Below are positions 8,911-60,204 of a stretch of 64,000 nucleotides of DNA, in pieces. Below the pieces are notes generated by a model. That model was not told the DNA's origin. It did not search any database and worked only from the letters and a program-made list of their open reading frames with translations. Within the stretch, counting starts at the first letter, position 1; every line of letters starts with the position of its first letter. Origin of the DNA: Amphibalanus amphitrite (lineage: Eukaryota > Arthropoda > Thecostraca > Balanomorpha > Balanidae); contig NW_024882022.1 in assembly GCF_019059575.1 (NCBI RefSeq), positions 393,001-457,000 of the forward strand, given 5' to 3'. Both the position numbers and the translations under genes were made by a program.

Positions 8911-11718
<2,808 letters not shown>

Positions 11719-11825
11719 CTGATGACAGGACAGGCAGGTCAAACAACAGTCAGCCCGCAGAAATCATTCCAGTAAGCCGCACTACATAACACACACAGAT
11801 ATACATGCATACATATATATGTTAC

Positions 11826-12868: not shown

Positions 12869-13041
12869 AGGCCAAATAAAATCAAGTGTGTAAGATGAGG
12901 GTGGCATATGTGCCGTCCGTGATGTTAAAACAAAGGCGACTAGTGGTGCGGCCTATATAACCGTCGCACGCTGACAAAAAGCTTACAGATCCTGCAAGCT
13001 GTAGCGACACATGCAGTGCAAATGGTAGCAGACAGCAGTAG

Positions 13042-13204
13042 TGTTAGGGTCGTGGTGCGCGCCATAATGGTCTCAAGGGTGCATTGTTCGGTGGCGTGGA
13101 GCGTGGAGGGACGCCATCTTGGTTGAGAGTTGTGTGTGGTGTACCGTGAGGTAAGGGTTGCGGTTTGGAGACCGGTTTTTTGTGGTTGGAGGACAGTGAA
13201 AATA
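13042..13204 (+). repeat. Outer Ty3/Gypsy 5' LTR, first part
   Basis: Starts TGTTAGGGTCG and runs to the TA at 13203-13204 where the Tc1-like element inserted. It matches 28896-29058 with about three differences. The second part is 22489-22553. Confidence 0.92.
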
Positions 13205-13319
13205 CAGGGTCCGGCAAAAGTCTTGACGTAGTTTTAAAATCGTTCCACACTTCAAGCCATTGTAAATAAAAAGGTTGTTCAGCGCTCAATGTATTGTCCA
13301 CGGACAAGCAAACACTTGT

Positions 13320-13557
13320 TGTTATAAACTTAAAATCTCTTTTGAGGCCGATGCATTGTATTTAAAAGGTATGCCCCGTCAAAATTAAAAACAAAACACA
13401 CAATGCCTACATTTTTAGACAACAACAACCTTTCTTTCATTTTGTCCTACATTTCGAAATAAAATAAAACACGTGCTGCACGAACTCGGTAGCCTAGGGA
13501 ACCACCATATCGACAACACCCTATTATCTTTAATACATGTAAGCTTTGTTCGCAACA
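13320..13557 (-). repeat. BEL/Pao composite 3' LTR (outer)
   Basis: 238 bp from TGTTATAAAC to TTCGCAACA on the plus strand, beginning TG and ending CA. It is identical by eye to 17354-17591. On the minus strand it is preceded by a purine tract (ATGGGGAGGC, complement of 13558-13567). Confidence 0.93.
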
Positions 13558-14320
13558 GCCTCCCCATAATTCGACCCAGCTCCGTTTACGAATTATCACT
13601 TCGACATCGAACAAAGCATGCACGCAGGCAAACAAACATGGACATTTAAAAGACCATCGTCACTATATAGACACTTCGATAGGACTTGCATCAACCGCCT
13701 GAGCTGCGCGCGCGTTTTACTTCCGTCCGTTGGCAGTCTTCCAGCAGGCACAGACGGACAGTTGGACGTGCGTACCTACATCCCGCTGACCGCCTCGATT
13801 TCGGCGGCGGGCGCGTAGCCGTCGGTCCCACAAATCGGGTGGACAGCTCCAACTAAAGGAGGCCTCCCCGCTGCAACATAGCGGGCAGCCATCTCTGCCG
13901 ACGATCGCTGTCCTCTGTTGCGTCATCTGTGAGGGTGCCAGCGTGAGTATCGGGTGGTTTGGCGTCCGATCGGCTCCAGTACGGACCAGTGTCGTGATGC
14001 CTGCCTCTCACTAGATCGGTTTCCAGCAGCCGGGGCGCCGCCTCCTTCAGTTCCAACTTCCCCGGCAGCGAGCTGAACTGGATTTCGTTTGGTCCCGTCG
14101 TCAGGAGCTGTCCCATCGGAGCGCGCAGAGCGTCATCACCTGGTGCACGGACATGGTGAACCAGCAGCGTGTCATCTCTGTGGAGCGCCGGCAGCCGGCC
14201 GGTGGCTATCCAGCCCAGCCGCGTGCGCACCGCGGACGGGCTCCCCGGTGGGCCCTCTCGGACCTCTCGTGGCACGATCAGACCAAATACATCGGCTCCG
14301 AGCAGGACTTCAACTGACCA
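13558..14320 (-). pseudogene. Second BEL/Pao unit: gag C-terminal remnant
   Basis: About 760 bp parallel to 14558-15310, carrying the last 140 or so codons of the gag/protease frame (13853-14320, minus strand) and the same 3' non-coding part and purine tract. In minus orientation the internal LTR is followed by only TGGTC of the primer site and then jumps into gag. Everything between the primer site and the gag C-terminus is missing. The sequence differs by a few percent from the first unit. Confidence 0.85.
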
Positions 14321-14557
14321 TGTTATAAACTTAAAATTTCTTTTGAGGCCGATGCATTGTATTTAAAAGGTATGCCTCGTGAAAAGTAAAAACAAAACAC
14401 ACAATGCCTACATTTTTGGACAACAACAACTTTCCTTCGTTTTGTTCTACATTTCGAAATAAAATAAAACACGTGCTGCACGAACTCGGTAGCTTAGGGA
14501 GCCACCATATCGACAATGCCCTATTATCTATAATACATGTAAGCTTTGTTCGTAACA
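14321..14557 (-). repeat. BEL/Pao composite internal LTR
   Basis: 237 bp, same ends as the outer LTRs, but with about a dozen substitutions or small indels scattered through it. It belongs to an older tandem arrangement than the outer pair. Confidence 0.92.
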
Positions 14558-14842
14558 GCCTCCCCATAATTCGACCCAGCTCCGTTTACGAATTATCACT
14601 TCGACATCGAACAAAGCATGCACGCAGGCAAACAAACATGGACATTTAAAAGACCATCGTCACTAGATGCTTCGATAGGACTTGCATCAACCGCCTGAGC
14701 TGCGCGTGTTTTACTTCCGTCCGTTGGCAGTCTTCCAGCAGGCTCAGACGGACAGTTGGACGTGCGTACCTACATCCCGCTGACCGCCTCGAATTCGGCG
14801 GCGGGCGCGTAGCCGTCGGTCCCATAAATCGGGTGGACAGCT

Positions 14843-17221
14843 CTACCTAAAGGAGGCCTCCCCGCTGCAACATAGCGGGCAGCCATCTCTGCCGGCGGTC
14901 GCTGTCCTCTGTTGCGTCATCTGTGAGGGCGGCACGTGAGTATCGGGCGGTTTGGCGTCCGGTCGGCTCCAGTACAGACCCGTGTCGTGATGCCTGCCTC
15001 TCACTAGATCGGTTTCGAGCAGCCGGGGCGCCGCCTCCTTCAGTTCCAACTTCCCCGGCAGCGAGCTGAACTGGCTTTCGTCTGGTTCCGTCGTCAGGAG
15101 CTGTCCCACCGGAGCGCGCAGAGCGTCATCACCTGGTGCACGGACATGGTGAACCAGCAGCGTGTCATCTCGGTGGAGCGCCGGCAGCCGGCCGGTGGCT
15201 ATCCATCCTAGCCGCGTGCGCACCGCGGACGGGCTCCCCGGTGGGCCCTCTCGGACCTCTCGTGGCACGATCAGACCGAATACATCGGCTCCGAGCAGGA
15301 TTTCAACTACCTCCGAGGTCGCTTCACAGAGGTCGATGTCTGCCAGATGTGGCCACTTCAACTTCTCCAGCGGCCAGTTCACCGCCCGTCCGGATACGTT
15401 CAGCGTTGGAGTTGCTTGTGCGTTCGTCACTTCGTAGAGCTCGCCTGACCCCATAGGCTGCACGCTAAACGTAACTCGTCGTGACGGCCTGGCCGTGATG
15501 CGATCGACCGTAGCGATCCGCAGTGGCTGTACTGGCCCTGTCAGTCCCAACTGACCCGCCAGCTTCTCCGTTACCAGCGATATCTGGCTTCCCAGATCTA
15601 ACAGGGCATTCACCCGGCGGCTACCTCCCGGCCCGTGAGCAGTAACCGGCACCACCTGCAGGATCAGCTGGGTCCTGCCGGCTGCCGGCGCTCCGTCAGC
15701 TCCGGTGACGGTCTGTGTGCCCACCCGGGCGACTGAGTCCACTGTCCCGTGACATCGGACGGGTGCACGCTGAGACTTATCACAAACGGCGCCAGGAACA
15801 CTCGGGGCGGGCGCCGCAGCACTGTGAAGAAGATGGTGATGGTACCGGCCACACCCGTTCACAGTACATTTTCTTCTCAGCTTGCAGTTGCGTGCGACGT
15901 GGCCAACCGCTAGGCACGAGAAGCACGCTCGTGCCTGCGTGACAATGCACATTCGGTCGCTCAGACTCATGCGCAACAGCTCCTCACATGAGTCTAGCCC
16001 GTGGCCGCCGCCGCAGCAGCCACACGGGAGAGAAGGTGCCGACACGACAGCAGACACACCCGCCATACGGGATACAACAGCCTCCCCGGTCATTCTGTCC
16101 CGATCTCCATCTCTACTGTTGCTGCTGAGGCTGTCTTGACAGACGTCTCGGCGGTCATCCTGCACTGCACGCGCAGCCAGCGCCTGTCTCCGTAGCCATC
16201 TGTCTAAGTCGCCAAGAGTCGGCCGCACAGGCCTCTTTGCCAGAACTTCCTCTCCCCACTTCCAGGCGAGTGACAAAGGCAGCTTTGAGACGACTGCTGC
16301 GACATTGGAGGTGGCTGCGAGGTCAGCGTGGTAACCCATCGACCGCAGCACACTGACGGCGGCGTGCAGGCCGCGGGACAGCTCGGCCAGACCAGTCAGG
16401 CTGTGTTCCGTCACAGGAGGCAGCTGTAGCACCTGACGAATGCTGGACCTCACAACCGCTGTCGGATCACCAAACTGCTCCTGTAGCTCGCGGAGAGCTT
16501 CTCCGTAGAGGGAGCCGTCACACAGGAGGCCACTGACGGCGTCTCGTGCCGGCCCTTCGAGACACGTCTGAAGGTGGGTCAGTCGCTCTGCGTCAGAGAG
16601 CTCGCTTCGATCGTGCACTAACGACTTGAACAGAGCGCTCCACCTGGGCCACTGCAGCGGGTCACCGTGAAACTTCTCCAGCGCCAGCCTCGGTAGAGGA
16701 GAGGGTGCTGCAGCCGTGCGCTGTCCCGGCTTAACCATATCTGGGCTGGTGGAGGGAAGCAGCTGGTCGATCCAGGAGCCAAGCGGCGTTCTCTCCGGGG
16801 AGCAGGCCCGGCTCCCCAGCTCGCTGATCCAGCGGCTGGTGCGATCGGCGGCAGTCACCGGTGCCGCGTCACACGGCGGCTGATGATCCGTGACAGCAGT
16901 GGGAGGCGGCTGTCCGGCTGCCGCGGGCGACTGCACTCTGGAGTCGCCGCCGCCACGCACACGCTCGTCATCACCATGGTCATCACTTCCATTCCGCTCG
17001 TCTTGTTCAATGAGGTCCGCCTCCGCTTCGAGAAGCTCAACCTCGTGAGCAAGCGCGGACTCTTTCAGTCGCCGCTCAGCCTCCTGAAGCTGTCGCTCCA
17101 GCTCGCTTCGTTGTCGCTGCTGTGACAGACGAAGCTTGGCCAGCTCTGCCTCACGCCTTACCGTGGAACTTCTCGACGAAGCCGACACGGCACTGCGGGT
17201 TTTCAATGATTCCGTAGTCAT
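14843..17221 (-). CDS. BEL/Pao Gag-protease polyprotein (pol deleted)
   Basis: An open frame of 792 codons. Residues about 20-90 are a charged coiled coil rich in Arg, Glu and Gln. Next comes a gag domain of the DUF1759 type used by BEL/Pao elements (conserved KFHGDPLQWPRW start). A CCHC zinc knuckle follows (CFSCLAVGHVARNC), then a retropepsin-like DUF1758 region whose active-site motif reads LLDLGSQ. The usual D-S/T-G is here D-L-G, so activity is doubtful. The frame stops after a short tail, and no RT or integrase follows before the internal LTR 285 bp on. Gag would form cytoplasmic particles; reverse transcription must come from a related element. The long undamaged frame agrees with recent activity. 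Confidence 0.85.
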   Translation of the reverse strand: MTTESLKTRSAVSASSRSSTVRREAELAKLRLSQQRQRSELERQLQEAERRLKESALAHEVELLEAEADLIEQDERNGSDDHGDDERVRGGGDSRVQSPAAAGQPPPTAVTDHQPPCDAAPVTAADRTSRWISELGSRACSPERTPLGSWIDQLLPSTSPDMVKPGQRTAAAPSPLPRLALEKFHGDPLQWPRWSALFKSLVHDRSELSDAERLTHLQTCLEGPARDAVSGLLCDGSLYGEALRELQEQFGDPTAVVRSSIRQVLQLPPVTEHSLTGLAELSRGLHAAVSVLRSMGYHADLAATSNVAAVVSKLPLSLAWKWGEEVLAKRPVRPTLGDLDRWLRRQALAARAVQDDRRDVCQDSLSSNSRDGDRDRMTGEAVVSRMAGVSAVVSAPSLPCGCCGGGHGLDSCEELLRMSLSDRMCIVTQARACFSCLAVGHVARNCKLRRKCTVNGCGRYHHHLLHSAAAPAPSVPGAVCDKSQRAPVRCHGTVDSVARVGTQTVTGADGAPAAGRTQLILQVVPVTAHGPGGSRRVNALLDLGSQISLVTEKLAGQLGLTGPVQPLRIATVDRITARPSRRVTFSVQPMGSGELYEVTNAQATPTLNVSGRAVNWPLEKLKWPHLADIDLCEATSEVVEILLGADVFGLIVPREVREGPPGSPSAVRTRLGWIATGRLPALHRDDTLLVHHVRAPGDDALRAPVGQLLTTEPDESQFSSLPGKLELKEAAPRLLETDLVRGRHHDTGLYWSRPDAKPPDTHVPPSQMTQQRTATAGRDGCPLCCSGEASFR

Positions 17222-17335
17222 TTTACATATTTACATTTTACATAGGTATACGTAGTCATCATACTCATCTTACACGTATATCATTCCAAAAAAAAAGAAT
17301 AAATCCGGATCCATTAGAATTACTGATTACTAAAG

Positions 17336-17353
17336 ATCCGGCCCGGAGGACCA
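17336..17353 (-). promoter_or_regulatory. Primer-binding site of the BEL/Pao element
   Basis: Directly after the 5' LTR on the minus strand is TGGTCCTCCGGGCCGGAT, complementary to a tRNA ending in CCA. From memory it comes closest to a tRNA-Tyr 3' end, with a few mismatches. The leader to the gag start is 132 nt. Confidence 0.65.
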
Positions 17354-17591
17354 TGTTATAAACTTAAAATCTCTTTTGAGGCCGATGCATTGTATTTAAA
17401 AGGTATGCCCCGTCAAAATTAAAAACAAAACACACAATGCCTACATTTTTAGACAACAACAACCTTTCTTTCATTTTGTCCTACATTTCGAAATAAAATA
17501 AAACACGTGCTGCACGAACTCGGTAGCCTAGGGAACCACCATATCGACAACACCCTATTATCTTTAATACATGTAAGCTTTGTTCGCAACA
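17354..17591 (-). repeat. BEL/Pao composite 5' LTR (outer)
   Basis: 238 bp identical to 13320-13557, followed at 17592 by the target duplication CTTGT. Confidence 0.93.
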
Positions 17592-18009
17592 CTTGTGAAC
17601 ACGGTTTGGCATACTGGCCACGAGAGTGGGGAGCACAGACGGCTGGATTCGTGACCACGCAGACTTGAGCTGCGTCTCCAGCTGCGCGAGGTTGGTTGCT
17701 GGCGTCTGTTTGTCGAGGTCTTTCTGGACGATCGCCCACAGCTCTTCAATGGGATTTAGGTCGGAACTGTTCCCCGGCCCCTTTTCCTTCACCCAGAAGT
17801 GCGGCAGGTTGTCTCAGCACCACTGCTGGGCTGTGGCAGAGCGATGCGCTGGAGCCCCTTCCTGCATGAAGATGGCTTTCGACCTCTCAGCCACCATCCG
17901 TCGCTTCAGAACAGAGCCATTTCTGGGAGTTCATCCGAGATGGTCTCCACATAATACTTGGTGTCCACCTTCGTCTTGGGCGGGATGACATGGAGCAGCT
18001 CACTGAGCA
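17592..18009 (-). pseudogene. Tc1-like transposase, C-terminal part
   Basis: The minus strand carries the end of a Tc1-like DDE transposase. A stretch reading HVIPPKTKVDTKYYVET lies near the upstream edge and NSSDLNPIEELWAIVQKDLDK around 17720-17765, the latter holding the last catalytic D and E of the D-D-E triad. In-frame stops occur between them. The reading continues toward 13319 beyond the BEL/Pao insertion, which cut the coding region near its 3' end. It is the downstream piece of the gene begun at 22018-22323. Confidence 0.85.
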
Positions 18010-18209
18010 TGTGCTGGGCGGTGCCTAGTAATACGCCGCACGCGAGTGTGATATTATCTTGCGCTAGGATGGTCTGACCTATTGGGCCGTTGATGGGATT
18101 TGGGAGGTCGAAAAGAGCTTTGGGTGAAGAGTGAAGTGAATGGAAGTAATGTGGATTATTGGGTGATGTTGTGAGTGTGTTTGCTTAGAAAATATATTAA
18201 TTCGCTACA
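18010..18209 (+). repeat. Young Ty3-like 5' LTR
   Basis: 200 bp from TGTGCTGGGCGG to ATTCGCTACA, identical to 21813-22012. The leader to the gag ATG is only 24 nt. Confidence 0.95.
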
Positions 18210-18233
18210 AGCTATTTCGGCTATTAACGTAAA

Positions 18234-18953
18234 ATGGCAGGTTTACAAATTAAGGATTTCTTGCAGCCGTTTGACGGATCCGGCGATGTAGTGCAGTGGC
18301 TAACGAAAGTAGATGTTGTTGCGAAACTACGTAAAATCAAGAATGTCGCAGAAGTTATTCCTCTTTTCCTTGAGGGTGCCGCTTTCGCTGTGTATAATGA
18401 GATGGCAGAGGAAGAAAAGGTAAACGCGGAGTGCGTCCGACAAGCACTGACTGTCGCGTTTGCGACCAACCCCTTCCGTGCCTATGAGGAGATGTGCAGG
18501 CGAGTGTGGCGGGATGAACCGGTAGATGTGTACCTGACGGACCTCCGGCGGCTGGCGCGCCTGGCTGGAGTAACTTCCGATATTCTTTTGCTGCGTGCGT
18601 TTGTCGTGGGTCTCCCAGCAGCTGTATCAAGAGAGCTGCGTGCACTGCCAGGCGTGGAGAGGATGCCGCTCTCCGATGTTGTGGAGCGCGCTCGCTGTCT
18701 GGTGGGAGAGCTCGTCGAGCGGCCTGTGGTGACCTCTGCGGCTGCAGTGGCACGCAGAGGCGTCCCGCGTAAAGGAGCGGTTCGATGCTACGGTTGTGGG
18801 GGCCCCCATCTTCTACGGTTTTGCGATGCTGCTGTGAAGACACCACTGTGTTGCTGGAACTGCGGGTGCGAGGGCCACTTGGCCAGAGACTGCCGTGTGG
18901 GAAACGACGCGGGGAGAGCTGGTGCGCCGGCAGCTCCCCCGCAGCAGGGTTAA
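18234..18953 (+). CDS. Gag of the young Ty3-like element
   Basis: 239 codons from ATG 18234 to TAA 18951-18953. The N-terminal two thirds resembles retrotransposon Gag (FDGSGDVVQWLTKVD, the usual start of such domains). Near residues 185-198 is a first knuckle (CYGCGGPHLLRFC) and near 205-218 a second, canonical CCHC knuckle (CWNCGCEGHLARDC). It forms the particle and binds the genomic RNA. The last 16 or so codons overlap the pol frame, and translation into pol requires a -1 shift at 18899-18905. Confidence 0.88.
   Translation: MAGLQIKDFLQPFDGSGDVVQWLTKVDVVAKLRKIKNVAEVIPLFLEGAAFAVYNEMAEEEKVNAECVRQALTVAFATNPFRAYEEMCRRVWRDEPVDVYLTDLRRLARLAGVTSDILLLRAFVVGLPAAVSRELRALPGVERMPLSDVVERARCLVGELVERPVVTSAAAVARRGVPRKGAVRCYGCGGPHLLRFCDAAVKTPLCCWNCGCEGHLARDCRVGNDAGRAGAPAAPPQQG
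18899..18942 (+). promoter_or_regulatory. -1 programmed ribosomal frameshift signal
   Basis: GGGAAAC at 18899-18905 is phased in the gag frame as G GGA AAC, the canonical X-XXY-YYZ slippery heptamer. Three bases later a hairpin is possible: GCGGGGAGAGCTG (18909-18921) with CAGCTCCCCCGC (18931-18942), 12 pairs with one bulged A and a 9-nt loop. The pol frame is exactly one base behind gag and gag stops at 18953. The spacer is shorter than the 5-9 nt usual for viral signals. Confidence 0.75.
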
Positions 18954-21748
18954 AGGCGTTGCCGATTGTTCCAGTGGCTGTCAATGGAAAAGAGTTCCAG
19001 GCACTACTAGACACAGGTTGCTCTCGAACTGTAATCGCCGTGTGGACAAGTGGGGCTCTTCGGCGTGGAGAACAAGAGATAGTGACCGTTGATGGCAGTC
19101 GAATTACCTGTGCTGGAACAGCGTCAGTCACGTTGAAGGTCTATGGGAATGTGATAACAGCAGATTGTGTGGTGGTGAATCAGCTGCTCAGAGGTGTAGA
19201 CGTGGTGCTGGGCATGGATGTGTTGACTCGGTTGGGTGGAGTCAAAATCGATGGTGACGGAGTAAAGCTGGCATGTGGAGCTGACAGCAAAAGAGACGCG
19301 TACACTGAGGAGATCGCAGCAGTCGGGAGAGGCGTGGAAGCTGCGGCTGCGTCGTCAGTGACTGCTGAAGGCAAAGATGATGCCGACAACAGTAGCGCTT
19401 GTGAGGGAAGGAGACAATCACCCGGAAGAGACGAGATATCTGGGGCTACACCGTCGATGGTTGTTGAAGATCAGGATTTTAGCGCCTCTTTCGACGGTTG
19501 TAAATGGACCGTGAGCTGGAAGTGGAAAGATCGCGCACCAGAATTGGCCAACACAGTAGAAATATACCAGAGCACCTTGAATGAGGAAACAGAAGAAAAG
19601 TTTGAAGAGGAAATCCAGAAGTGGATTGAGGCGGGCTGGCTACAGCTACAAGAAGGCGAGCCTACTGGTGGCGTGATACCGCTGATGGCGGTCATGCAAG
19701 AGAACAAAAAGAGGGTGCGTCCAGTGTTCGACTTCAGGGAGTTGAATGAATTTGTTGAAAATCATACGAGCGGGGACATTGCAGTGTGTGACGAAAGCAT
19801 CCGAAAATGGAGACAGATTCCTGAACCAGTACGCACACTGGATTTGAAATCAGCATACCTCCAGATTCATGTAGACTCTTCTCTGTGGAAATACCAGCAG
19901 GTCAGGTTCAAAGGGAAGACATATGTTCTCACGCGCCTAGGTTTTGGCCTGAACTGTTCTCCTCGAATCATGTCGAAGATCTTGAGTGAGGTGCTGGCAC
20001 AGGACAGTTCAGTGCAGAGCGGGACAGATCACTTCATGGATGACATCATCGTGCAAGAGAATATAGTCACCGCAGACCAAGTGGCGGCTCATCTGCAAAA
20101 ATACGGTCTCGAGACAAAACCACCAGAGGCGCTGGACGGTGGACGTGTGCTGGGTCTCCAGCTGAACCGTGACAGCCAGGAGGATCTTCAGTTCAGCAGA
20201 GGCAATGAGATCCCTGTCATGGACGCGTCTGTGAAGCTAACACGCAGAAAACTGTTCTCGATCTGTGGTCGCCTCACCGGTCACTATCCGGTCTGCGGGT
20301 GGCTCCGAGTGGCGTGCAGCTACATCAAGAGGAGAAGCGAGGGTGTGCGATGGGAGGACGATGTCGGAATGGATGTGCGTCTGATGACAGAAGAGCTTCT
20401 TGAGAAGATTCAGGAGCATGACCCTGTGCGAGGCCCATGGCTGGTGAAAAATGAAGCAAAGCACGGTCGCGTTTGGTGTGATGCGAGTAGCCTGGCGATG
20501 GGGGTCGCGCTGGAAATCAATGGAGCCATTGTAGAAGACGCAGCCTGGCTGAGGAAAACAAAAGACTACAATCACATAAACATCGCCGAACTAGATGCAG
20601 CAGTGCGTGGTGTGAATCTAAGTCTAAAGTGGGGACTGCAGTCGGTAGAAGTCATCACTGACTCCGTGACGGTTAAGCGGTGGCTGTCTTCAGCGTTGGA
20701 AGGAAACTGCAGGATAAAAGTCGCAGGGATGTCGGAACTGCTGGTCAGACGTCGCCTGGGTCTCTTCAAGGAGTTGGTGGATTCGTATTCGCTGCTGGTG
20801 ACAATTCAGCTGGTAGAATCCAAGAAAAACAGAGCTGACATCCTCACAAGAGTGAGCAAGCGATGGCTGGTCAGAGAAAAGGACAAGGACGTGTGCGCGG
20901 CAAATGTCGAACTGCTACACGCGGAACACCATTTCGGAGTGGACAAGACGCTCTATCTGGGACAGCTGGTAGATCCTGAGCTGACGAGGGCAGAAGTTGA
21001 GCAATGTGTGCAGCGATGCGCCCCATGTCAGTCCATCGACCCATCACCAGTCACTCATGAGGGTGGAAGTCTAGCTGTCACAGACAACTGGTCACGTCTG
21101 GCAGTGGACACGACCCACTTCGGAAACCGCTGCTACATTACAGTAGTAGACTGCGGTCCAAGTAGACATGCGATTTGGAGGAAAATTCGATCAGAAAACG
21201 CAGAAGATGTGGCCACTGTGTTAGAGGAATTGTTCAGGGAACGAGGTCCGGTGGATGAACTTCTGTGTGACAACAGCACCACGTTCCGCTCTTACAAGCT
21301 AGCGGAACTGTGCCGCCAGTGGAACATCCGACAGAGATTCCGAGCAGCATATCGTCCATCTGGCAATGGCATTGTAGAGCGAAATCACAGGACAATCAAG
21401 CGCATGGCCTCGCGAGGTGGTATCACCCCACTCAAGGCAGTTTTCTGGTACAACCTGGCAGCAAAGGACGGAAGTGACCCGAGCACGGCACCAAGCGGGG
21501 GGATATTCACATATCGGTGGCGCCATCCGGAGGCCCAACCGAAGGACCCGGCTCTGAGCGAGGAGAGGATGACTCATGAGTACCGTGTCGGTGACCAGGT
21601 CTGGGTGAAGCCGCCCGGTGCCAGGTGCACTACCCGCTGGTCTACTGGCCAGGTGACCGGTTTGGTGTCGGGCAACACTGTGCTGGTGGATGGTGTACCC
21701 CGGCATGTGCTGGACGTTAGAAGGGTAACGCCAGAGGGGGGCAGCTAA
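18905..21748 (+). CDS. Pol of the young Ty3-like element (PR-RT-RH-IN)
   Basis: Open for about 948 codons after the frameshift site. In order: a retropepsin with LLDTGCS near 19007-19030; RT with VRPVFDFREL near 19710-19740, LDLKSAYLQIHV near 19840-19870 and the catalytic motif FMDD near 20034-20045; RNase H with WCDASS near 20476 and IAELDAAV near 20583; integrase with an HHCC-type zinc region ending CAPC near 21020, then DTTHFG, LCDNSTTFRS and GNGIVERNH as the DDE core, to 21450; and a C-terminal tail with a GDQVWVKPPG module. It converts the RNA to DNA and inserts it. FMDD in place of the usual YxDD is uncommon but keeps both aspartates. No damage was seen. Confidence 0.9.
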   Translation, partial: RRGESWCAGSSPAAGLKALPIVPVAVNGKEFQALLDTGCSRTVIAVWTSGALRRGEQEIVTVDGSRITCAGTASVTLKVYGNVITADCVVVNQLLRGVDVVLGMDVLTRLGGVKIDGDGVKLACGADSKRDAYTEEIAAVGRGVEAAAASSVTAEGKDDADNSSACEGRRQSPGRDEISGATPSMVVEDQDFSASFDGCKWTVSWKWKDRAPELANTVEIYQSTLNEETEEKFEEEIQKWIEAGWLQLQEGEPTGGVIPLMAVMQENKKRVRPVFDFRELNEFVENHTSGDIAVCDESIRKWRQIPEPVRTLDLKSAYLQIHVDSSLWKYQQVRFKGKTYVLTRLGFGLNCSPRIMSKILSEVLAQDSSVQSGTDHFMDDIIVQENIVTADQVAAHLQKYGLETKPPEALDGGRVLGLQLNRDSQEDLQFSRGNEIPVMDASVKLTRRKLFSICGRLTGHYPVCGWLRVACSYIKRRSEGVRWEDDVGMDVRLMTEELLEKIQEHDPVRGPWLVKNEAKHGRVWCDASSLAMGVALEINGAIVEDAAWLRKTKDYNHINIAELDAAVRGVNLSLKWGLQSVEVITDSVTVKRWLSSALEGNCRIKVAGMSELLVRRRLGLFKELVDSYSLLVTIQLVESKKNRADILTRVSKRWLVREKDKDVCAANVELLHAEHHFGVDKTLYLGQLVDPELTRAEVEQCVQRCAPCQSIDPSPVTHEGGSLAVTDNWSRLAVDTTHFGNRCYITVVDCGPSRHAIWRKIRSENAEDVATVLEELFRERGPVDELLCDNSTTFRSYKLAELCRQWNIRQRFRAAYRPSGNGIVERNHRTIKRMASRGGITPLKAVFWYNLAAKDGSDPSTAPSGGIFTYRWRHPEAQPKDPALSEERMTHEYRVGDQVWVKPPGARCTTRWSTGQVTGLVSGNTVLVDGVPRHVLDVRRVTPEGGS

Positions 21749-21812
21749 ACTGACGTGTATAAGTGGTGTATGGGGTAGATAGTGATGTTGTGATGTGGAC
21801 ATCAAGGGGGCA

Positions 21813-22012
21813 TGTGCTGGGCGGTGCCTAGTAATACGCCGCACGCGAGTGTGATATTATCTTGCGCTAGGATGGTCTGACCTATTGGGCCGTTGATGGG
21901 ATTTGGGAGGTCGAAAAGAGCTTTGGGTGAAGAGTGAAGTGAATGGAAGTAATGTGGATTATTGGGTGATGTTGTGAGTGTGTTTGCTTAGAAAATATAT
22001 TAATTCGCTACA
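21813..22012 (+). repeat. Young Ty3-like 3' LTR
   Basis: Identical to 18010-18209, followed by the target duplication GAGCA at 22013-22017. Confidence 0.95.
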
Positions 22013-22017
22013 GAGCA

Positions 22018-22323
22018 CTTAATGTGACACCGTCCCCCACACCATCAACTTCGCTGGGAATTTGACAGGAGCTGTGGGCACACTGGCTGCGTCGGGCGCC
22101 CAAACAAATGCGGCCATTCTGGCGATTTGGTGGGTGTTAAGTGCTTCCACCACCTTTGCACTGGTCGGAGAGGGGCGCCGACATTATTCGCGACCAGACT
22201 TTGTGACATTCCCGCTTGAATCATGCTGATGGCTCGATTCCTGAGACTGACATCGTAATATTTGACCATGGTGTTTTCAGCCTTCATTTCAACTGCACGC
22301 TCGCTACTCAAATGACCTCGCAC
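22018..22323 (-). pseudogene. Tc1-like transposase, N-terminal part
   Basis: The minus strand reads RNRAISMIQAGMSQSLVANN, the first helix-turn-helix of Tc1-type transposases, which binds the terminal repeat. It then continues through a W-K region before the frame becomes unrecognisable. The remaining DDE part appears only at 17592-18009, beyond the young Ty3-like insertion. Much of the middle of the gene is missing even after removing that insertion. Confidence 0.8.
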
Positions 22324-22488
22324 AATCAGCCGCTGACCCTTAGGTTATCTGTGGTCTCATACCCCGGGGCACAATAGATGCGCTGACACAATGGCGTTGG
22401 AAGCAAAACGCTGGGTGGGGCAAAACGCGCATGGGAAGACACAGAAACTAGAATACCACATACGACAAGACTTTTGCCGGACCCTGTA

Positions 22489-22553
22489 TATCAGAGGTCA
22501 AGATATTGGGTCTTGGATGCGTAAACTGAACGAAGTGGCCCGGAAACACAACA
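22489..22553 (+). repeat. Outer Ty3/Gypsy 5' LTR, second part
   Basis: Resumes TATCAGAGGTCAAG after the Tc1-like element and ends AACACAACA, matching 29060-29124 with one difference. A site resembling a primer-binding sequence (TGGGAATTTAATC, 22561) begins a few bases later, but the tRNA is not identified. Confidence 0.9.
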
Positions 22554-23562
22554 TCAGCGGTGGGAATTTAATCTTAAACCAGACCGCCTTTTCTCGCCAC
22601 GTGGAGATACGCGCCAGATATGACTCACAACGAAACCAAACCGGATTTGAGCTTATGAGAGGGTTCGTCAGGGGCATTCAGGCCCCAGTTATTTGCAGGA
22701 GGTGACCCTGAAGCTTTTCTGAGGCAATTTAATCGAGTGGCACGGGCCAATGGATGGAGTGATACCCGCAAACTGGACATACTCCCTGCTTTGTTCGTGG
22801 GAAGCTACGAGTGGATAGCTGACCAACTGGATGCAGAGTGCCCAGCCACAGTGGAGGAGGCTGGAAGGATCATCATTGAAAAGTTGTGTCCAAGAGAGAA
22901 AAGAAGAGAAATGCTACATTCCCTCAACGAACTTCGGATGAAGGAAACAGATGAGCTTCGAGCGTTTGTAAGTAAGCTGCAGGAGATGCTTCATGCAGCC
23001 ATGCCCGATGTTGACAAAGAAACTAGAGATAACCTGGTGGTTGAGAGAATCCCGAAGGCCGTGCCAGATAAGTGGCAGCTACGGCTTCTGGACATGGATA
23101 CTTATTCCGTGGAGGCATACATCCGCAAGTTGGAGAGGATGCAGTCAGCTGAGAAGATGCAAAAGGAGTTCCGTGGCTCTGACACTGTATCAGAGGCTCC
23201 GCAGGCTCATCCTGTGAGTCAGACAAGGCAAGGTCCTGTGGGTCATGAAGGTAGGAGGACACGTGGGCCCTGCTTCGTGTGTGGTAAGATGGGCCATCTG
23301 GCTGCTAACTGTTTCAAGAGAGTCAATGGGCAGCCCATGAAGTGCTTCCAGTGTGGTGGAGTGGGCCATTATGCCAAGCAGTGTCCAAGTCCAAGAAGCC
23401 CAAGAGGAGCATCAAGTACCTCTACACCGGAACCGAAGAAACCCGATCAGCTGGTCAGAAGGGTGGAGACTGCTGTCCCTGTGGAGGTAAGGGTTCCCGC
23501 TGTATTGCAAGGAGTCGAGGTCCCTGTAACTGTTGATACGGGTAGCCCGATCAGTCTGAGAT
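22554..23562 (+). pseudogene. Outer Ty3/Gypsy Gag and start of protease
   Basis: The clear reading frame begins before 22737 (FLRQFNRVARANGWSD) and continues as a Ty3/Gypsy Gag with a helical capsid domain. It has two CCHC knuckles, CFVCGKMGHLAANC (about 23273-23314) and CFQCGGVGHYAKQC (about 23343-23384). The frame runs on into the retropepsin active site VDTGSPIS (about 23532-23556). A 1.08-kb MITE-like element then breaks it within that protease motif. The gag start lies in a frame-shifted stretch between 22554 and 22737, so the N-terminus is damaged or misread. Confidence 0.85.
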
Positions 23563-24638
23563 AGAGCCTTGGTCTGAGGCCTGTTTCACTAAAAACGTGT
23601 ATTTACAAGTGTTTGTAGTTTACAATTCATAAGTATTTTTACCACTGAACTCTAATATATACTGGAAGGAGCATTGGTGACTTGTTTTTGTCTATCGATT
23701 TCCGCCATGTTGTGTATACCAGAAATATAAATTGCATGTACGGTAGCAGAGGTGCAGTTTAGTGAGAGGTACACTACTCAAAAGTGCTGCTGCTTCATGC
23801 TTGCAGTTTGATTGTAGTGATCAACTTTTCAAGACTTTGGTATACACAACATGGCGGAAATCGTTAGACATTCTGGCCCATATACGGCCAAGGCGAGTGC
23901 CTCCCCCTGATTTTTACCAACTACGTAAAAACCGATTTCACTAAGCTTCATCGCCAGTGGCACCTCCGATAAGAAAATGTTTGCAAATAAATTTGTAAAC
24001 AGTAAAAATCAGTAAAAATGTTTTTAATCAAGAACTATAGCATGTTAAAGATATTGCTTCTTTGTATCAAATATTGTCTAGTATTCATGTCAAAAGCTGC
24101 CTAATTAAATTATATTTAATGATGCTGTTGGAAAAAGATATAAATGATAATTCACATTGTCCTATTATTGTAAGAAAATAACACGCAAAACATTTGACAG
24201 CAGAAGACTGTTGAATGCAATTATGGCGCGCGAATGACAAAACTTGACGATATTTTAATACCGATTATTTTGCTTCTTAGGGTGTGTGCTAAGTAAAAAT
24301 TGAGCATGAAACGACTCAACAAAGCATAGTTGTTCTAAATATATGACTGTTTGCATTATTGCACAAAAAGTATCAAAATTCCGAACGTCAGGACCACTGG
24401 AATTTCAGGTTTGTAATTACGATGTCTTCTTTCAAGTTTCTGGTCTTCGTGAAACAGAAAGTTTGCGATTCCCATGTTTTCTAGCAAACTTTTTCTTGTA
24501 AAAAAGTTTGCAAATTCTAAGCTCAAAATTTATGTTCAAAGGTTTCGTGAAATCCGAATCTCAAATGTTGGTAATTATTTCTTGTAAACTCAAGCTTTTT
24601 CTTTGTAAATACAAGTTTTATTTGTTAGTGAAACAGGC
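23563..24638. mobile_element. MITE-like DNA element inserted in the protease
   Basis: The inverted ends GGCCTGTTTCACTAA (23578-23592) and TTAGTGAAACAGGCC (24625-24639) bound an AT-rich, gene-free kilobase. CTGAGAT occurs on both sides (23556-23562 and 24639-24645) and is the likely target duplication, though the left end carries about 15 extra bases outside the repeat. Subterminal TTTACAAG/CTTGTAAA words add to the symmetry. The superfamily is unknown. Removing it rejoins the protease region of the outer retrotransposon apart from a frameshift near 24690. Confidence 0.75.
23697..23864. repeat. Inverted repeat inside the MITE
   Basis: GATTTCCGCCATGTTGTG (about 23699) is repeated as CACAACATGGCGGAAATC (about 23846). 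With the flanking TATACCA/TGGTATA the arms are about 26 bp with a 115-bp loop. This may be a smaller element nested within. Confidence 0.7.
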
Positions 24639-24649
24639 CTGAGATCAGT

Positions 24650-26184
24650 GAAACGTTAGCAGTCCAGCTGGGGAGGAGTGGACCAGTGCGGAGGAGGAAC
24701 TGCGGGCAGCCAATGGGACTGCTGTCAAAGCCCTGGGAAGGACGAGTTTAGAGATTCAGATTGGAGGTAAAAAGATGGTGCACAGTTTCATAGTGGTGGA
24801 GGACATGCTAGACTCAACGCTTGTCGGACTGGATGTTCTGCACAAGCTGTTTGACCCTGAGGATGTGGAGGGTGTACAGATTGCTTCTGTGGTACACATG
24901 TCAGGCTCAGGCATCCCTGTACGCGTTATCAACCATGGAGATGAAAGCGTGATTATTCCAGCAGGCACAAAACTGGGAAGCTGTGATCCGGTGGAGGTGA
25001 CAGCCTCATCTGGAGCTGAAGGTGGCCTCTCACCGTCAACGACATTGAAGCTGCCACAGGTGAAGTGCGACAACCCGGCTGAGGTGAAGCAACTGCTCCA
25101 AGAGTACAAGGATGTCTTCTCCCAAAATGAAGAGGACATAGGAAACTACACTGGTAAGCACACCCTAATCATTGATGCAGGGAATGCCAGACCAGTTAGA
25201 CAGAGAGCTTATCGCACACCGATCCATCTCAGAGACACCCTAAGAGCGGAACTGCAAAAGATGGAAGAACAAGGTGTCATTGAACCGTCTTCGTCACCCT
25301 GGGCATCACCCGTGGTTTTGATCAGAAAGAAGAATGGCAAGATCCGTTTTTGCTGTGATTACAGGGCAGTGAATAAGCTCATCAAACATGATTCCTATCC
25401 ATTACCTCGAGTTGAGGACCTGTTGCAAGCGACACAAGGTTCAAGGTTCTTTACCGTGCTCGATCAGAAGGCAGCCTACTGGGCAATCCAAGTGGAAAAA
25501 CAGTCGAGGGAAGTGACTGCTTTTCTCACGGAATTTGGACTTCATCAGTGGGTCAGACAGCCATTTGGGCTCAAGACCAGTCCTGGGGTATTTCAGAGAG
25601 TGATGGAGGATCTCCTGGGGAGCATGAACTGGCACAGAGCTGTAGTATATCTGGATGATGTGATTGTCTTTTCAAGGACCATGAAGGAGCATCTGGAGAG
25701 CCTGAGGGAGCTGCTGCAGAAGTTTCGTGAGGGCGGCCTGAAGCTGAATCCAGAGAAATGCTGCATCGCTGCTTCAGAGGTGCACTTCCTGGGCCATCAC
25801 CTGGATGCTGAGGGTATCCACCCTGCTGAGGAGAAAGTAGAAGCCATCCGCAACTGGCCTGTTCCTGGGAGTCCAAGGGCTCTTCGTCAGTTTCTCGGCT
25901 TCATGGGATATTACCAACAGTATATCCCCGACTACAGCAAGAAAGCGGCAGTCTTGACCGACCTTCTGAAACAAGCAGCACCATACCAGTGGACACCAGA
26001 ATGTCAACAGAGTTTCCAGAACCTGAAGGATGACATCGTGAAGTACAGAGTGCTGAAGTTCCCAGATGTGGAAGAGGAGTTTGTCCTGACTACTGACGGA
26101 AGTGGCTCTGGCTGGGGCGCGGAACTGAGGCAAAGGCAAGGAGTCATCGCCTTCGCCTCAGGGAATGGTCGACTACCGAGCTGA
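24650..26184 (+). pseudogene. Outer Ty3/Gypsy protease end, RT and RNase H start
   Basis: After the MITE the protease resumes (GLDVLHKL) and the frame from 24775 is open to 26184. The RT has YRTPIHLRDTLRAEL, SPWASPVVLIRKKNGK, RFCCDYRAVNKLIKHDSYPLPR, the QPFGLKTSPGVFQ motif and the catalytic YLDD at about 25648-25659. Next is the connection region (LRQFLGFMGYYQQYI) and the start of RNase H (TTDGSGSGWGAEL). A one-base shift near 26166-26172 ends this frame early. The remaining RNase H (ELNWSATEKELGAVV) reads in the next frame. It is a typical Ty3/Gypsy RT, unlike the divergent RT of the inner element. Confidence 0.9.
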
Positions 26185-26762
26185 ACTGGTCAGCGACAGA
26201 AAAGGAGCTTGGAGCGGTGGTAAAGGCAACTGAGAAGTTTCGACATTACCTTCTAGGGAAGCCCTTCAAGCTGAAGACAGACCATCAGGCGCTCAAATAC
26301 TTACACCAGTCGAGGCCGCCAACTGGGAAGCTATTCCGCTGGCTGGAAAAACTACAAGAGTACGACTATGTGGTGGAACACGTACCAGGTCCTTCCATTC
26401 CACACGTGGATGCCCTCTCCCATCAGCACAGCCCCATGGTGCAGACCGAAGTGAGGTCAAACTTGCGAGCATCCGCACCTGCCTTCGTGCCCAAGCGGAA
26501 CCAGGAGCTGAAGGCGGAGGAGCCAATGCACCTGCAGACCCGCTGGGTGAAGGAAGACACAGCAACTCATCAGCCCCTGCAGGACGGCCGGGGTGAAGCA
26601 AGTTGCCACCAGATTCACCGAGTGACGGAAGACACGGTGGAGCAACTTCAGACGGACCGCGTTCCAGATGATGGAAGCACAGACAAGACAACGGAAGACA
26701 GAGAACGATCCGGCAGGCAGTGTCAAGAGACCCTGTTCTCAGCAGACTATGTCACCAAGTGA
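26172..26762 (+). pseudogene. Outer Ty3/Gypsy RNase H remainder and linker
   Basis: A frame shifted by one base from the RT carries FRHYLLGKPFKLKTDHQALKYL (cut here at the catalytic D region) and ends the RNase H near VEHVPGPSIPHVDALSH. A Glu/Asp/Gln/Arg-rich linker follows. True coding moves to a third frame near 26690-26720. The two shifts show that the polyprotein can no longer be made. Confidence 0.85.
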
Positions 26763-28666
26763 AGAACAAGATGAAGGACAGCAAGTTGGAGTTGGACGGA
26801 CTGACGCCCGCCCAGCAAGCTGAGCTGAAGTTCTACTGTAGGATGGAGGATCTGGCTATCCAAGATGGTATCATCTGCAGAAGATCAGATGGGTTTCGCG
26901 AGAGCCAGATAATCCTGCCAGAAAACCTGCGTGCCAAGGCACTGAAGCTCGCACATGAAGTCCCAATGGCTGGACACGGGGGAGTGCGCAAGACGCTGCA
27001 CAGGCTGACCGCAAGTGTATTCTGGTACAACATCAGGTCTGATGTCAGGAAGTTTGTTACCAGTTGTCACTCGTGCCTGGAAAACAAGCCAAAGAACCAG
27101 AAGTGTCAAGAGGGAAGAGGAGCGGTTCCGGTTGGAGGTGAACCGCTACAGCACTGGGCAGCGGACATTCTAGAGCTGCCGCTCTCCAGAGAGGGATTTC
27201 GGTACGTACTGGTCGTTACCGACATGTTTTCTAAGCTTGTGGAGATATTCCCTTTGAAACATCATACAGCTGTAGATATCGCCGATTGTTTCCTTCAAGT
27301 CATCTGTAGATACGGGGTAATGCGCTCGCTCTTGACAGATCAAGGTCGTAACTTCGAAAGTAAGCTCATCCAAGTACTATGCAAGAGGCTAGGAGTTGAG
27401 AAGCTCAGAACCTCAGTGTATAGGCCCTGTTGCAATGGGGTTACGGAAAGGTTCAACCGGACGTTGTGCGAGATGCTGTCCCATTTCAGAGAAGATGAGG
27501 AATGGCCGGCACTGTTACCTCTCCTGTCAGCCGCCTACAACACCAGTGTGCATACTACCACTGGCATCTCGCCGTACGAGCTGGTCCATGGTACTGCTGC
27601 GAGAACCCTTCTGAGAGCCGAGTTCGATGCTCCTGTCGAGCTTCCACAGAAGACGTACTGTCAGTACCTGCAAGAGCTGAAACGGAAGATGGCGAGGACG
27701 AATGAAGCAGCCGTCGAGAGGATCCACAAAGAACAAGCGAGCAGGACCGACCCACCAGAACCTGTTTTCAAGACGGGCGAGCTCGTGTGGTGTCGCAACT
27801 TCAGTGCCAAGAAGGGAGTGAAGGGCAAGTTTGATGCGAAATTCGAAGGACCATACCGTGTGATGGAGTGTCGACCACCAGACTACGTAATCAAAAAAGG
27901 AAAGAAGAAACGCCTGATCCACGGGGCACATTTGAAGCGAGGTGACACCTGGCAGAACCGGGAGACGGTGATCAGCGAAGGAGACCAAGAGGACGTCACG
28001 TTGAAGACGACGGAGACGACGCCGGAATGGGCCCCGCAAGCGCGTGGTACGCCATCAGCTAGCGGGGTGGAAATCGGATGGGAGGAGGACTACACCCAGT
28101 TTCCTTCCCGCGCAGTGCAACAGAGGCAGACCTGTGAAGGTCCCGATGCGGGCTCAGCTGCGGCTACAATCTCAATCACTGCAGAGAACCGCGTAGAGGA
28201 CCCGGTCGGAGTAGCGGAGGTGACTGCAGCCGACAACGACAGAAGAGAAGCCGGACTCGAAGTTGTGCAGCTGGACGGATCTAGTACCCAGCCAGCGCCG
28301 GAGACCGACAGCCGGCAGACGACAGACAACGCGGAAATCGGCCGGGCGGACCAGTCGGGACTGGTCGCCCCGGCCGCAGCAGAGGTCACGGCGGACGAGG
28401 CAGCCGCGACTGCGGGCGTACCAGAGGTGGATGGCCGTGGAAATCCGACAGACGGCCAGGGCGGAGCGGCGGAACCAGATCCACAAGCGACGGCAGCAGA
28501 GCAGGGGTCACGGGAGCCGTCCGGTGCGGTGGCGCCCACTGGAGTCACGGGCGAGTCGACGGTGGCGCCACCTGGCTCGGTGTCTGAGGCGGTAGCGGAC
28601 ACGACCGGAACGAAACGGACGAGGTGCGGGCGTGAGGTTCGGCGCCCGAAGCGGTATCTTGATTGA
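26690..28666 (+). CDS. Outer Ty3/Gypsy integrase with long C-terminal extension
   Basis: The frame reads TIRQAVSRDPVLSRL (about 26690) and stays open to the stop at 28664-28666. It contains the HHCC zinc domain (HEVPMAGHGGVRKTL to CHSC, about 26955-27075). The DDE core has aspartates at WAADILELP and LLTDQGRNF and a glutamate at GVTERFNRTL. A C-terminal module follows with FKTGELVWCRNF and a GPY-type FEGPYRVM near 27845-27870. After this come about 220 residues of low-complexity Ala/Thr/Glu/Gly-rich sequence ending RRPKRYLD, an unusually long tail. Integrase joins the cDNA to host DNA; the 4-bp target duplication fits. The upstream frame breaks leave it without its polyprotein. Confidence 0.88.
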   Translation, partial: NGRQRTIRQAVSRDPVLSRLCHQVKNKMKDSKLELDGLTPAQQAELKFYCRMEDLAIQDGIICRRSDGFRESQIILPENLRAKALKLAHEVPMAGHGGVRKTLHRLTASVFWYNIRSDVRKFVTSCHSCLENKPKNQKCQEGRGAVPVGGEPLQHWAADILELPLSREGFRYVLVVTDMFSKLVEIFPLKHHTAVDIADCFLQVICRYGVMRSLLTDQGRNFESKLIQVLCKRLGVEKLRTSVYRPCCNGVTERFNRTLCEMLSHFREDEEWPALLPLLSAAYNTSVHTTTGISPYELVHGTAARTLLRAEFDAPVELPQKTYCQYLQELKRKMARTNEAAVERIHKEQASRTDPPEPVFKTGELVWCRNFSAKKGVKGKFDAKFEGPYRVMECRPPDYVIKKGKKKRLIHGAHLKRGDTWQNRETVISEGDQEDVTLKTTETTPEWAPQARGTPSASGVEIGWEEDYTQFPSRAVQQRQTCEGPDAGSAAATISITAENRVEDPVGVAEVTAADNDRREAGLEVVQLDGSSTQPAPETDSRQTTDNAEIGRADQSGLVAPAAAEVTADEAAATAGVPEVDGRGNPTDGQGGAAEPDPQATAAEQGSREPSGAVAPTGVTGESTVAPPGSVSEAVADTTGTKRTRCGREVRRPKRYLD

Positions 28667-28882
28667 TCAGGGATCGTCGAGTGATTAGGTGTTTGTTCTG
28701 ATGTCTTTGCAGTTGTGTCTGATGTGAGTGTTATGTGTGACAAGAGGTCATGGGTCATTTTGTTGGTGTAGACCTGGGTTACAAGAGTGTGACCTCAGGA
28801 GCCGTGAATTTGTGACCGTCCTAAGCGAGGTATCCGTGCTACCTACATTCGAGGTGATGTGTTGGCGCCATAAGTTTGGCTT

Positions 28883-28895
28883 GAGGTGAGGGGGA
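28883..28895 (+). promoter_or_regulatory. Polypurine tract of outer Ty3/Gypsy
   Basis: GAGGTGAGGGGGA immediately precedes the TG of the 3' LTR, the expected primer site for plus-strand DNA synthesis. Confidence 0.8.
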
Positions 28896-29124
28896 TGTTA
28901 GGGTCGTGGTGCGCGCCATAATGGTCTCAAGGGTGCATTGTTCGGTGGCGTGGAGCGTGGAGGGACGCCAACTTGGTTGAGAGTTGTGTGTGGTGTACCG
29001 TGAGGTAAGGGTTGCGGTTTGGAGACCGGTTGTTTTGTTGTTGGAGGACAGTGAAAATATATCGGAGGTCAAGATATTGGGTCTTGGATGCGTAAACTGA
29101 ACGAAGTGGCCCGGAAACACAACA
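28896..29124 (+). repeat. Outer Ty3/Gypsy 3' LTR (intact)
   Basis: 229 bp from TGTTAGGGTCG to AACACAACA. It shows the empty Tc1 target: GTGAAAATATATCGGAGG here against a GTGAAAATA / TATCAGAGG break in the 5' copy. Followed by the target duplication GTAG at 29125-29128. Confidence 0.93.
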
Positions 29125-29128
29125 GTAG

Positions 29129-48780: not shown

Positions 48781-49920
48781 AAGTGCGGTAACAATATCAA
48801 CTTCTCGGGGTTTTTAAGTCGGTCGATACGCCCCTCCCCCTCCCAGTAAGAAATCCGTGGCGACGCACTTGTATAGGTGGATTTAACTAAAACTACTGAG
48901 CCGAGTGACTTATAACGATAAAGCTTCATCTTAGAAACGACGAAGACGAAATGCCTTTTGATCTCGACATACTCGCTCCCCCTCCCCCGTTCGTCAGAAT
49001 TCATCCATCAGACCCGGCATGTCGGCCGACCTGTAAAACGACCCCCCCCCCCCCACAAAACGTTCGCCTAGATCCTCCCTTGTTCTCTGTAGAGAGGAGG
49101 CGCCCTGTAGAGAGGAGGCCCCCCGGGATCCTCCGCCCCCCCCCCTTGGCCAAATCCTAGGTATGTGCGTGCAATTGTTTCGTGCATTTTGGGAGTATTC
49201 GTGTGGCTACACGACCTACAACTTTAAAATCAAAATTTTGCTTCCAATGATATGCAGAATGCGGGGGTTTTGCGAAATACTACAGCAGAAATTGTTCTGT
49301 GACTGTCCTGTTTTACCGAGCACGATCCGCCTACTTTGTCGATACCGCTATTGTGGCTATAGAAGTAGTCGAGGAGGTCCCTGAAACAGCCAAAAGGGAG
49401 CCATTAAACAGTCTACAATCTTTACACAAAAACTTGACCCTTCCGAAATGAAGTGGGTGATTGGTGAAAAAAATGAGTATCTAGATTTTAGGAAAGTGCA
49501 GGGGTACCTCCAAGGAACCCCTGAAACAGTTTGCCAAACTAGGGGATAGGAATCTAAATACTGAATTAATCAAGAAATTGAATCTCTCATCAGCCTTAAG
49601 TATAAGAAGAGCATACATATACCGTTTTAGTGGCATCACTTTGCATTTGAAAAGAGCGGGAACATACACTGCATAAATGTGGTTGCAAAACGTTGAGCCG
49701 GAATATAAATACCTACGCCTTATTTTATAAGCCTGAACTTGGATCCAGGGGGAGATTAAGTCATATCCCTCAAGTCATAGACCCGCTTTTCACCACCACG
49801 GTCCACGCTCCCTCCCCCCCCCCCCGGTCAACACCTTTTCCACTGCTGGTTTTTTCCTCCGCCCCCCCCCCCCCGCTCAGCACCTTTCGTCGCCGCCCCA
49901 CCGGCGTCCGGGGTTCAGCC
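48781..49920. other. hAT interior right part, C-run rich
   Basis: Several long C-runs (about 49042, 49137, 49816, 49864) and no recognised gene. Confidence 0.45.
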
Positions 49921-49960
49921 CCCCCAACCTATTTTGCGATCCTACACCCCTGTGCATCAG

Positions 49961-50973: not shown

Positions 50974-51196
50974 GACTTGTAAACGACTCAAATTTTTTTG
51001 AGTCGATTCTTTGTTTGAGTCTGAAAATTTGAATCGATTCATCAAACGACTCATGATGTTAAATTTAATTGATTCGAATCAACTCATGACTCATCAAGTT
51101 CCTCGATGAAGTGATTCGAATCAACTCATGACTCATCGAAAAACGGTTTGATTCTGAGTCGATTCACGAATCAACTCAGAGTCGTTTACAAGTCTG
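50974..51196. mobile_element. MITE rich in TGACTCA motifs, copy 2 (complete)
   Basis: Ends GACTTGTAAACGACTC and GAGTCGTTTACAAGTC, about 220 bp, with internal GATTCGAATCAACTCATGACTCA units. The left tip has lost its CA (GGTGACTTG), while the right still ends GTCTG. Same family as 39645-39942. Confidence 0.85.
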
Positions 51197-51223
51197 CTTT
51201 TTACATTAGATCACAATTCCGGT

Positions 51224-52910: not shown

Positions 52911-53156
52911 CGAACACCTACATCACTTGACCCTGATTACTTGTCTAAAGGTGCAACGCAGGTAGCGATTACATTATTAGCGTTCGTCGATGGGTGTGAT
53001 TGGTTCAATCAATCTCTGCCGGCCCACTCTCTTCGAACACCTACATCATTTGACCCCGATTACTTGTCTAAAGATCGACGCGGGTAGCGTCAGTTATTAG
53101 CGTTCCTCGGTGGCTTATGATTGGTCCGTCAACCTCTGCCGCTCACGGCACATCTC
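52911..53156 (+). repeat. Two tandem 123-bp units
   Basis: CGAACACCTACATCA recurs at 52911 and 53034. Each unit continues TTGACCC.GATTACTTGTCTAAAG, then TTATTAGCGTTC and GATTGGT (an inverted CCAAT) and ends near TCTGCCG. Duplicated CCAAT-bearing units just ahead of a GC-richer stretch could be promoter repeats; this is inference. Confidence 0.75.
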
Positions 53157-56510: not shown

Positions 56511-56511
56511 C

Positions 56512-56781
<270 letters not shown>

Positions 56782-60180: not shown

Positions 60181-60204
60181 GTGACCCCCTTGGTTGCTCG
60201 TGTC

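Follow-up and report, generated by a model that had tools for sequence, protein, structure and literature searches.

Nested insertions of several transposon classes at one locus of Amphibalanus amphitrite, with empty sites on a second contig

Transposable elements are commonly found inside one another, and clusters of nested long terminal repeat (LTR) retrotransposons, with elements within elements in several layers, have been described in grasses (PMC1950507). Complex insertions bearing three LTRs, for which template switching was proposed, are likewise known from grasses (PMC1950507), and tandem LTR retrotransposons from plants (PMC11899658). Priming of reverse transcription from within a tRNA has been described for copia (half-tRNA) and Ty5 (internal tRNA cleavage) (PMC5371799), and hairpin priming for chromoviruses (PMC3601003); all of these papers are cited here from excerpts of their text. 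Here, we analyze a nest of elements within a 64,000-nucleotide (nt) stretch of the Amphibalanus amphitrite genome (assembly GCF_019059575.1, contig NW_024882022.1, positions 393,001 to 457,000; hereafter the window), in which a Ty3-type retrotransposon holds a Tc1-type DNA element that itself holds two further LTR elements. The nest resembles the grass clusters in its layering, but differs from what the excerpted source describes in mixing classes (Ty3, Tc1, BEL and miniature inverted-repeat transposable elements, MITEs) and in that one assembly also holds a second contig of the locus where sites are empty. We find the nest to be genuine and well supported; it is a clear instance of an ordinary process and not a new kind of system, and each insertion in it is very probably a separate, independent transposition event.

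The outer Ty3-type element (13042-29124) carries the Tc1-type element in its 5' LTR, and both a BEL-type element and a young LTR element lie inside the Tc1-type element (Table 1). A separate branch leads from the Ty3-type element through one MITE (MITE-A) to a second, hAT-like MITE. Paired duplications were read at the junctions of the outer element (GTAG, 13042-29124), the Tc1-type element (TA, 13205-22486), the BEL-type element (CTTGT, 13320-17591) and the young element (GAGCA, 18010-22012), in agreement with the initial annotation both on the Ty3-type element with its Tc1 insert and on the two elements placed inside Tc1. Its four layers shrink to three at the deepest point (BEL or young within Tc1 within Ty3), plus the separate branch of MITE within MITE within Ty3; because the BEL-type and young elements lie next to each other inside Tc1, the depth stays at three and nesting does not give the order of these two. 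That annotation also overlooked the hAT-like MITE and a primer-site remnant in the BEL-type element, and left the three-LTR structure of the latter vague. Mechanistically, each insertion would be a normal integrase or transposase reaction.

The Tc1-type element has the TA duplication and inverted ends of Tc1/mariner elements, the ends (CAGGGTCCGGCAAAAGTCTTG) being perfect inverted repeats over 21 nt. Its three pieces in the window sum to exactly 997 base pairs (bp) and show 8-27 mismatches to sister copies. A query with one piece returned 26 genome matches, window's included, and the best 8 full-length copies after the window's own were fetched; all 8 are 995-997 bp long, TA-flanked and uninterrupted through both inner insertion sites, so the flanks do rejoin into continuous Tc1 sequence. 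Three other contigs among the 26 matches (C53, C396, C1150) carry copies that are themselves split in the queried piece. The longest open stretch in the eight sisters is at most 157 codons in any frame, with frames broken in all eight, and we therefore take the family as non-autonomous; the transposase domain match (DDE_3, E = 0.00053, 20.3 bits) lies under the curated cut-off of 28.6. In its inverted ends, TA duplication and putative DDE remnant, this 997-bp family, with frames broken in the 8 copies read, shows no essential difference from non-autonomous Tc1/mariner elements. The earlier statement that a Tc1 transposase had been cut is correct in that the BEL-type and young elements interrupt a Tc1 element, but the frames are already broken in the eight intact sisters read, and judging from these copies the window's Tc1 had most likely ceased to be functional, or never was, by the time it was hit.

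The same locus can be compared with a second contig (C498), which aligns to the window's contig (C525) in 16 colinear blocks between 2,994 and 38,628, with 97 mismatches in 15,221 aligned bases (0.64%; the count excludes simple repeats, two inverted matches near 455-1654, one 94% far match and LTR-to-LTR cross matches). On C498 the outer element carries the same GTAG duplications on both sides, and a stretch of its pol (24640-25140) matches C525 and C498 only (2 of 2 matches in the genome). The Tc1 site on C498 is a single clean TA with no insert, and C498 is therefore without the BEL-type and young elements there too; an empty site on another haplotype, which the initial annotation had suggested looking for, is thus found on what is most likely the second haplotype. 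The site of the hAT-like MITE is also empty on C498, and MITE-A is present on both contigs. C498 has insertions of its own in the outer element, one of ~1.36 kb near window position 28,396 (C498:450807-452170) and one of ~1.7 kb in the 3' LTR near 29,038 (C498:452824-454500) that starts with TATTG repeats. As far as sequence comparison goes, the nested-insertion reading is independently backed by the empty sites on C498 and the intact sister copies, and C498 is most likely the other allele of the window locus.

The outer element was assigned to Ty3/Gypsy on its TG..CA LTRs, short duplication, gag knuckles and RT-RNaseH-integrase order (RT, reverse transcriptase), with domain matches to RVT_1 (8.1e-37), RT_RNaseH_2, Integrase_H2C2 and rve. 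Over 229 positions, its LTRs differ by 3 substitutions plus an indel of one base. Two of these four differences (the indel and one A/G) are common to C498 and so predate the haplotype split if the contigs are alleles, and the other two occur solely in the 3' LTR of the window; the 3' LTR of C498 has one private change, and the 5' LTRs of window and C498 are identical. The intact 3' LTR (28896-29124) keeps an unoccupied TA where Tc1 sits in its 5' partner, as had been annotated. Both inner LTR pairs are without differences (BEL-type outer pair, 0/238; young element, 0/200). The proposal to date the layers by these numbers is only partly borne out: the four outer differences and zero inner ones are there, but counts alone hardly order the events (substitutions 3/229 versus 0/438 for the inner pairs together; Fisher P = 0.04). 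The order of events comes from the nesting and the second haplotype, not from LTR counts.

Several observations weigh against reading the nest as separate insertions at a locus seen as two alleles. For MITE-A, comparison of 16 sister copies with readable ends established no target duplication; the initial annotation had called every duplication readable. The BEL target is CTTGT on both sides in the window and CTTGC in 8 of 8 Tc1 sisters, a mismatch that fits one base change before the BEL insertion. As for allelism, in the stretches compared the colinearity with C498 ends left of 2,994 and right of 38,628, two C498 matches near 455-1654 are inverted, and a query with 49000-53000 gave repeats only (40 scored of 8,543 candidates) and is uninformative; there is some room left for a segmental duplication. 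If so, C498 would be a paralogous duplicate and the insertions would have piled up on one of two duplicates, as the breaks in colinearity and the inverted matches might suggest. We consider this unlikely: each contig has, over 300 kb leftward of the nest (~352 kb on C525, ~321 kb on C498), a FAD-oxidase_C exon of equal score and the same strand, some other exons of the family are paired at equal scores on two contigs elsewhere (C58/C617 twice, C1341/C448; unpaired on C239, C75 and C366), as expected of an assembly keeping both haplotypes, and the divergence is only 0.64%. C525 and C498 would thus be alleles of one locus.

Granting the two alleles, the clean TA on C498 could in principle reflect loss of Tc1 by excision, of which Tc1-type elements are capable, instead of a site that never held one. 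Excision of this type usually leaves a few end bases, however, and the C498 site has no footprint bases, making such a loss very improbable. An assembly chimera is harder still to credit. The window is repeat-dense, and assemblers can err in such sequence, but the Ty3, Tc1, BEL, young and hAT-MITE junctions all have matching duplications, the Tc1 pieces total exactly 997 bp, and C498 and the sister copies show the unbroken states, none of which a chimera would yield. Independent insertions at a locus represented by two probable alleles remain our preferred account.

The BEL-type element holds three LTRs, an outer pair (LTR_A) and an internal one (LTR_B), and LTR_B is followed by X', which duplicates the 3' internal segment X. 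LTR_B differs from LTR_A by 14 substitutions in 238, and X' from X by 3.5%. The 792-residue open reading frame (ORF) matches DUF1759 (2.5e-17), which we take to be tied to BEL-type elements, and has a protease match under cut-off; an RT or integrase domain was not found in the two ORFs examined, and the element is predicted to be non-autonomous. Among four copies fetched, two (C555, C1011) are ordinary two-LTR elements of ~3.27 kb, one (C596) is truncated and one (C1053) is longer and rearranged. A query running from LTR_A through X' and LTR_B into the beginning of X gave 36 matches, of which the window's own alone covers it from end to end. The window's gag stretch and X are ~99% identical to C555 and C1011, and X' 95-96%. 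Within the family, gag (~99%) and LTRs (93-96%) differ in their identity to these two ordinary copies.

With its internal LTR, alike outer LTRs and single flanking duplication, the element resembles the complex three-LTR insertions of plants, as far as the excerpted sources describe them (PMC1950507, PMC11899658). It differs from these in being of BEL type, in having no RT or integrase domain, in a middle LTR that retains 5 nt of primer site, and in a second internal region of only ~760 bp in place of two complete ones. We conclude that it works like a complex three-LTR insertion but is a truncated variant. LTR_B gives way to TGGTC, with which the primer site opens, and X' then begins just past GGT of the parent sequence; this junction may stem from plus-strand strong-stop DNA undergoing a short mis-transfer to X, or may result from a deletion within a longer tandem. 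Two source sequences were probably involved, X' being 3.5% from X and LTR_B 14/238 from LTR_A, and the three-LTR form could on this ground have arisen after integration, by recombination between neighboring copies. Such an origin seems improbable, since a post-integration cross is expected to leave differing flanks, and identical outer LTRs with a single 5-bp duplication are, according to the excerpts of Sabot and Schulman (PMC1950507), marks of one reverse-transcription and insertion event. The identical outer LTRs and one duplication indicate a single complementary DNA (cDNA), and the element would have arrived as one three-LTR cDNA, formed via template switching in reverse transcription. 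In a search of open-licence literature, no listed paper contained the term 'bel pao'.

The young element fits the Ty3 type in its protease-RT-integrase order and short duplication. Its family numbers nine copies, the window's included, when recognized by an internal stretch (98-100% identity over its length), and a copy on C88, flanked by a duplication of its own (TGACA), agrees with the window's in every LTR position. While the internal stretches are 98-100% identical, LTR matches in the family range from 87 to 100% identity to the window's. A search of viral contigs for kin of the young pol, using six peptide patterns, gave no match.

The usual TGG primer site, the complement of a tRNA 3' end, is absent next to the young 5' LTR, its place being taken by AGCTATTTCGGC in all 9 copies of 9. 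Base for base, these 12 nt complement positions 1-12 of the tRNA-Phe encoded in this genome. The 19-base start of tRNA-Phe occurs at 20 places in the genome, versus 0 for a reversed control, and 4 of 4 places checked are tRNA-Phe genes beginning at that base. Simple arithmetic puts at ~2 in 10,000 the probability that 12 bases would by chance match some position among ~60 tRNA types. It is conceivable, if rather doubtful, that the element is primed by a tRNA-Phe fragment ending near nucleotide 12 and not by the CCA end of a tRNA; we regard tRNA-Phe priming as a lead, not a result. Like copia and Ty5, as described in the excerpted source (PMC5371799), the element would have its putative primer end inside a tRNA and not at the CCA end; it differs from them in that it would pair with nt 1-12, the very 5' end of tRNA-Phe. 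Among the titles listed in searches of open-licence literature, none concerned priming from the 5' end of a tRNA. Self-priming was considered and rejected: no 7-mer of the complement of the 25-nt leader occurs anywhere in the element, the best LTR-leader duplex (-17.1) was attained by 57 of 500 shuffled LTRs, and the LTR segment involved varies between copies.

Both MITEs belong to large sets of similar sequences. MITE-A has 612 candidates, 40 of which were scored, including the copies of the window and C498, and no other copy among these 40 matches the inner 267 bp of the window's. For the inner MITE there are 213 candidates, and 40 of 40 scored (window's included) are 99-100% identical. Among six of its loci fetched, five (window's included) have 8-bp duplications, of which one carries a single mismatch and the other four none, and the sixth gave no match to the end patterns; we take this MITE to be hAT-like from the 8-bp duplication and its end sequence. 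C220, the sole other relative found with the first 140 bases of the outer LTR, gave no alignment at the MITE site within the part retrieved.

In 12 of 16 sister copies, MITE-A is bordered at either end by CAG or CTG, a count that leaves out L046 (ends not found by pattern) and two L050 copies. CWG as a 3-bp duplication was rejected, the two sides being equal in only 8 of 16, and in 7 of the 12 CAG/CTG-flanked copies; no ordinary duplication explains the C[A/T]G pattern. CTGAGAT, previously read as flanking a MITE in the outer protease, is present on both sides in the window and the MITE is indeed in the protease region, but the motif is not supported as a target duplication. Its left copy (23556-23562) falls in ~17 extra bases beside MITE-A (23554-23570) that are in the window and absent from C498.

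Table 1 Features of the nest, by position in the window.
Feature	Positions	Strand	Remarks
GTAG target duplication, left copy	13038-13041		Also beside the element on C498
5' LTR of outer Ty3-type element, left piece	13042-13204	+	Identical to C498
Tc1-type element (997 bp own sequence) plus two inserts	13205-22486		TA at both ends; empty on C498
BEL-type element, three LTRs, in Tc1	13320-17591	-	CTTGT at 13315-13319 and 17592-17596
LTR_A, 3' copy	13320-13557	-	Identical to 17354-17591
X', second copy of 3' internal segment	13558-14319	-	Primer-site remnant at LTR_B end
LTR_B, internal LTR	14320-14557	-	Then TGGTC (element orientation)
gag-protease-like ORF, 792 residues	14843-17221	-	DUF1759
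LTR_A, 5' copy	17354-17591	-	
GAGCA target duplication, left copy	18005-18009		Right copy 22013-22017
Young LTR element, 4003 bp	18010-22012	+	Identical 200-bp LTRs, 18010-18209 and 21813-22012
Putative primer site, 12 nt adjoining 5' LTR	18210-18221	+	Complement of tRNA-Phe nt 1-12
pol-like ORF	18785-21748	+	Protease, RT, DUF7047, integrase core
5' LTR of outer element, right piece	22487-22553	+	Starts with second TA
gag-like ORF with CCHC knuckles, outer element	22737-23564	+	
MITE-A, ~790 bp without insert, in outer protease region	23577-24640		AGGCCT ends; also on C498
hAT-like MITE, 267 bp, inside MITE-A	23643-23909		ATTTTTAC at 23635-23642 and 23910-23917; absent from C498
RT and RNase H region, outer element	24775-26184	+	
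Integrase region, outer element	26720-28666	+	
Intact 3' LTR, 229 bp	28896-29124	+	Unoccupied TA site
GTAG target duplication, right copy	29125-29128		

Further features lie elsewhere in the window. Another insertion absent from C498 (31715-35581) is flanked by a 12-bp duplication, AATTTGCAACAT, and contains RT-like and GIY-YIG endonuclease-like ORFs (by eye, Penelope-like) within a near-perfect palindrome with 1213-nt arms and a 236-nt spacer. From ~52006 to 64000 and beyond runs the start of an apparent long LTR element of ~13.5 kb with LTRs near 990 bp, a stretch that is 98-100% identical in at least 22 places besides the query, several of them paired 12-13 kb apart. A long AG/CT microsatellite (10571-11746) is the source of spurious 'RERERE' ORFs, and adjoining it on the minus strand is an exon that by eye resembles D-2-hydroxyglutarate dehydrogenase.

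The value of this locus is that, for most insertions, a single assembly supplies an empty site or an uninterrupted sister copy as a check, so that the order of insertion needs no molecular clock. One retrotransposon has served as a landing ground on two contigs of the locus, with different later insertions on each. The three-LTR BEL-type element carries the complex insertion described in plants over to another element type, and priming by the 5' end of tRNA-Phe, if true, would be a further way to start reverse transcription beside the half-tRNA of copia.

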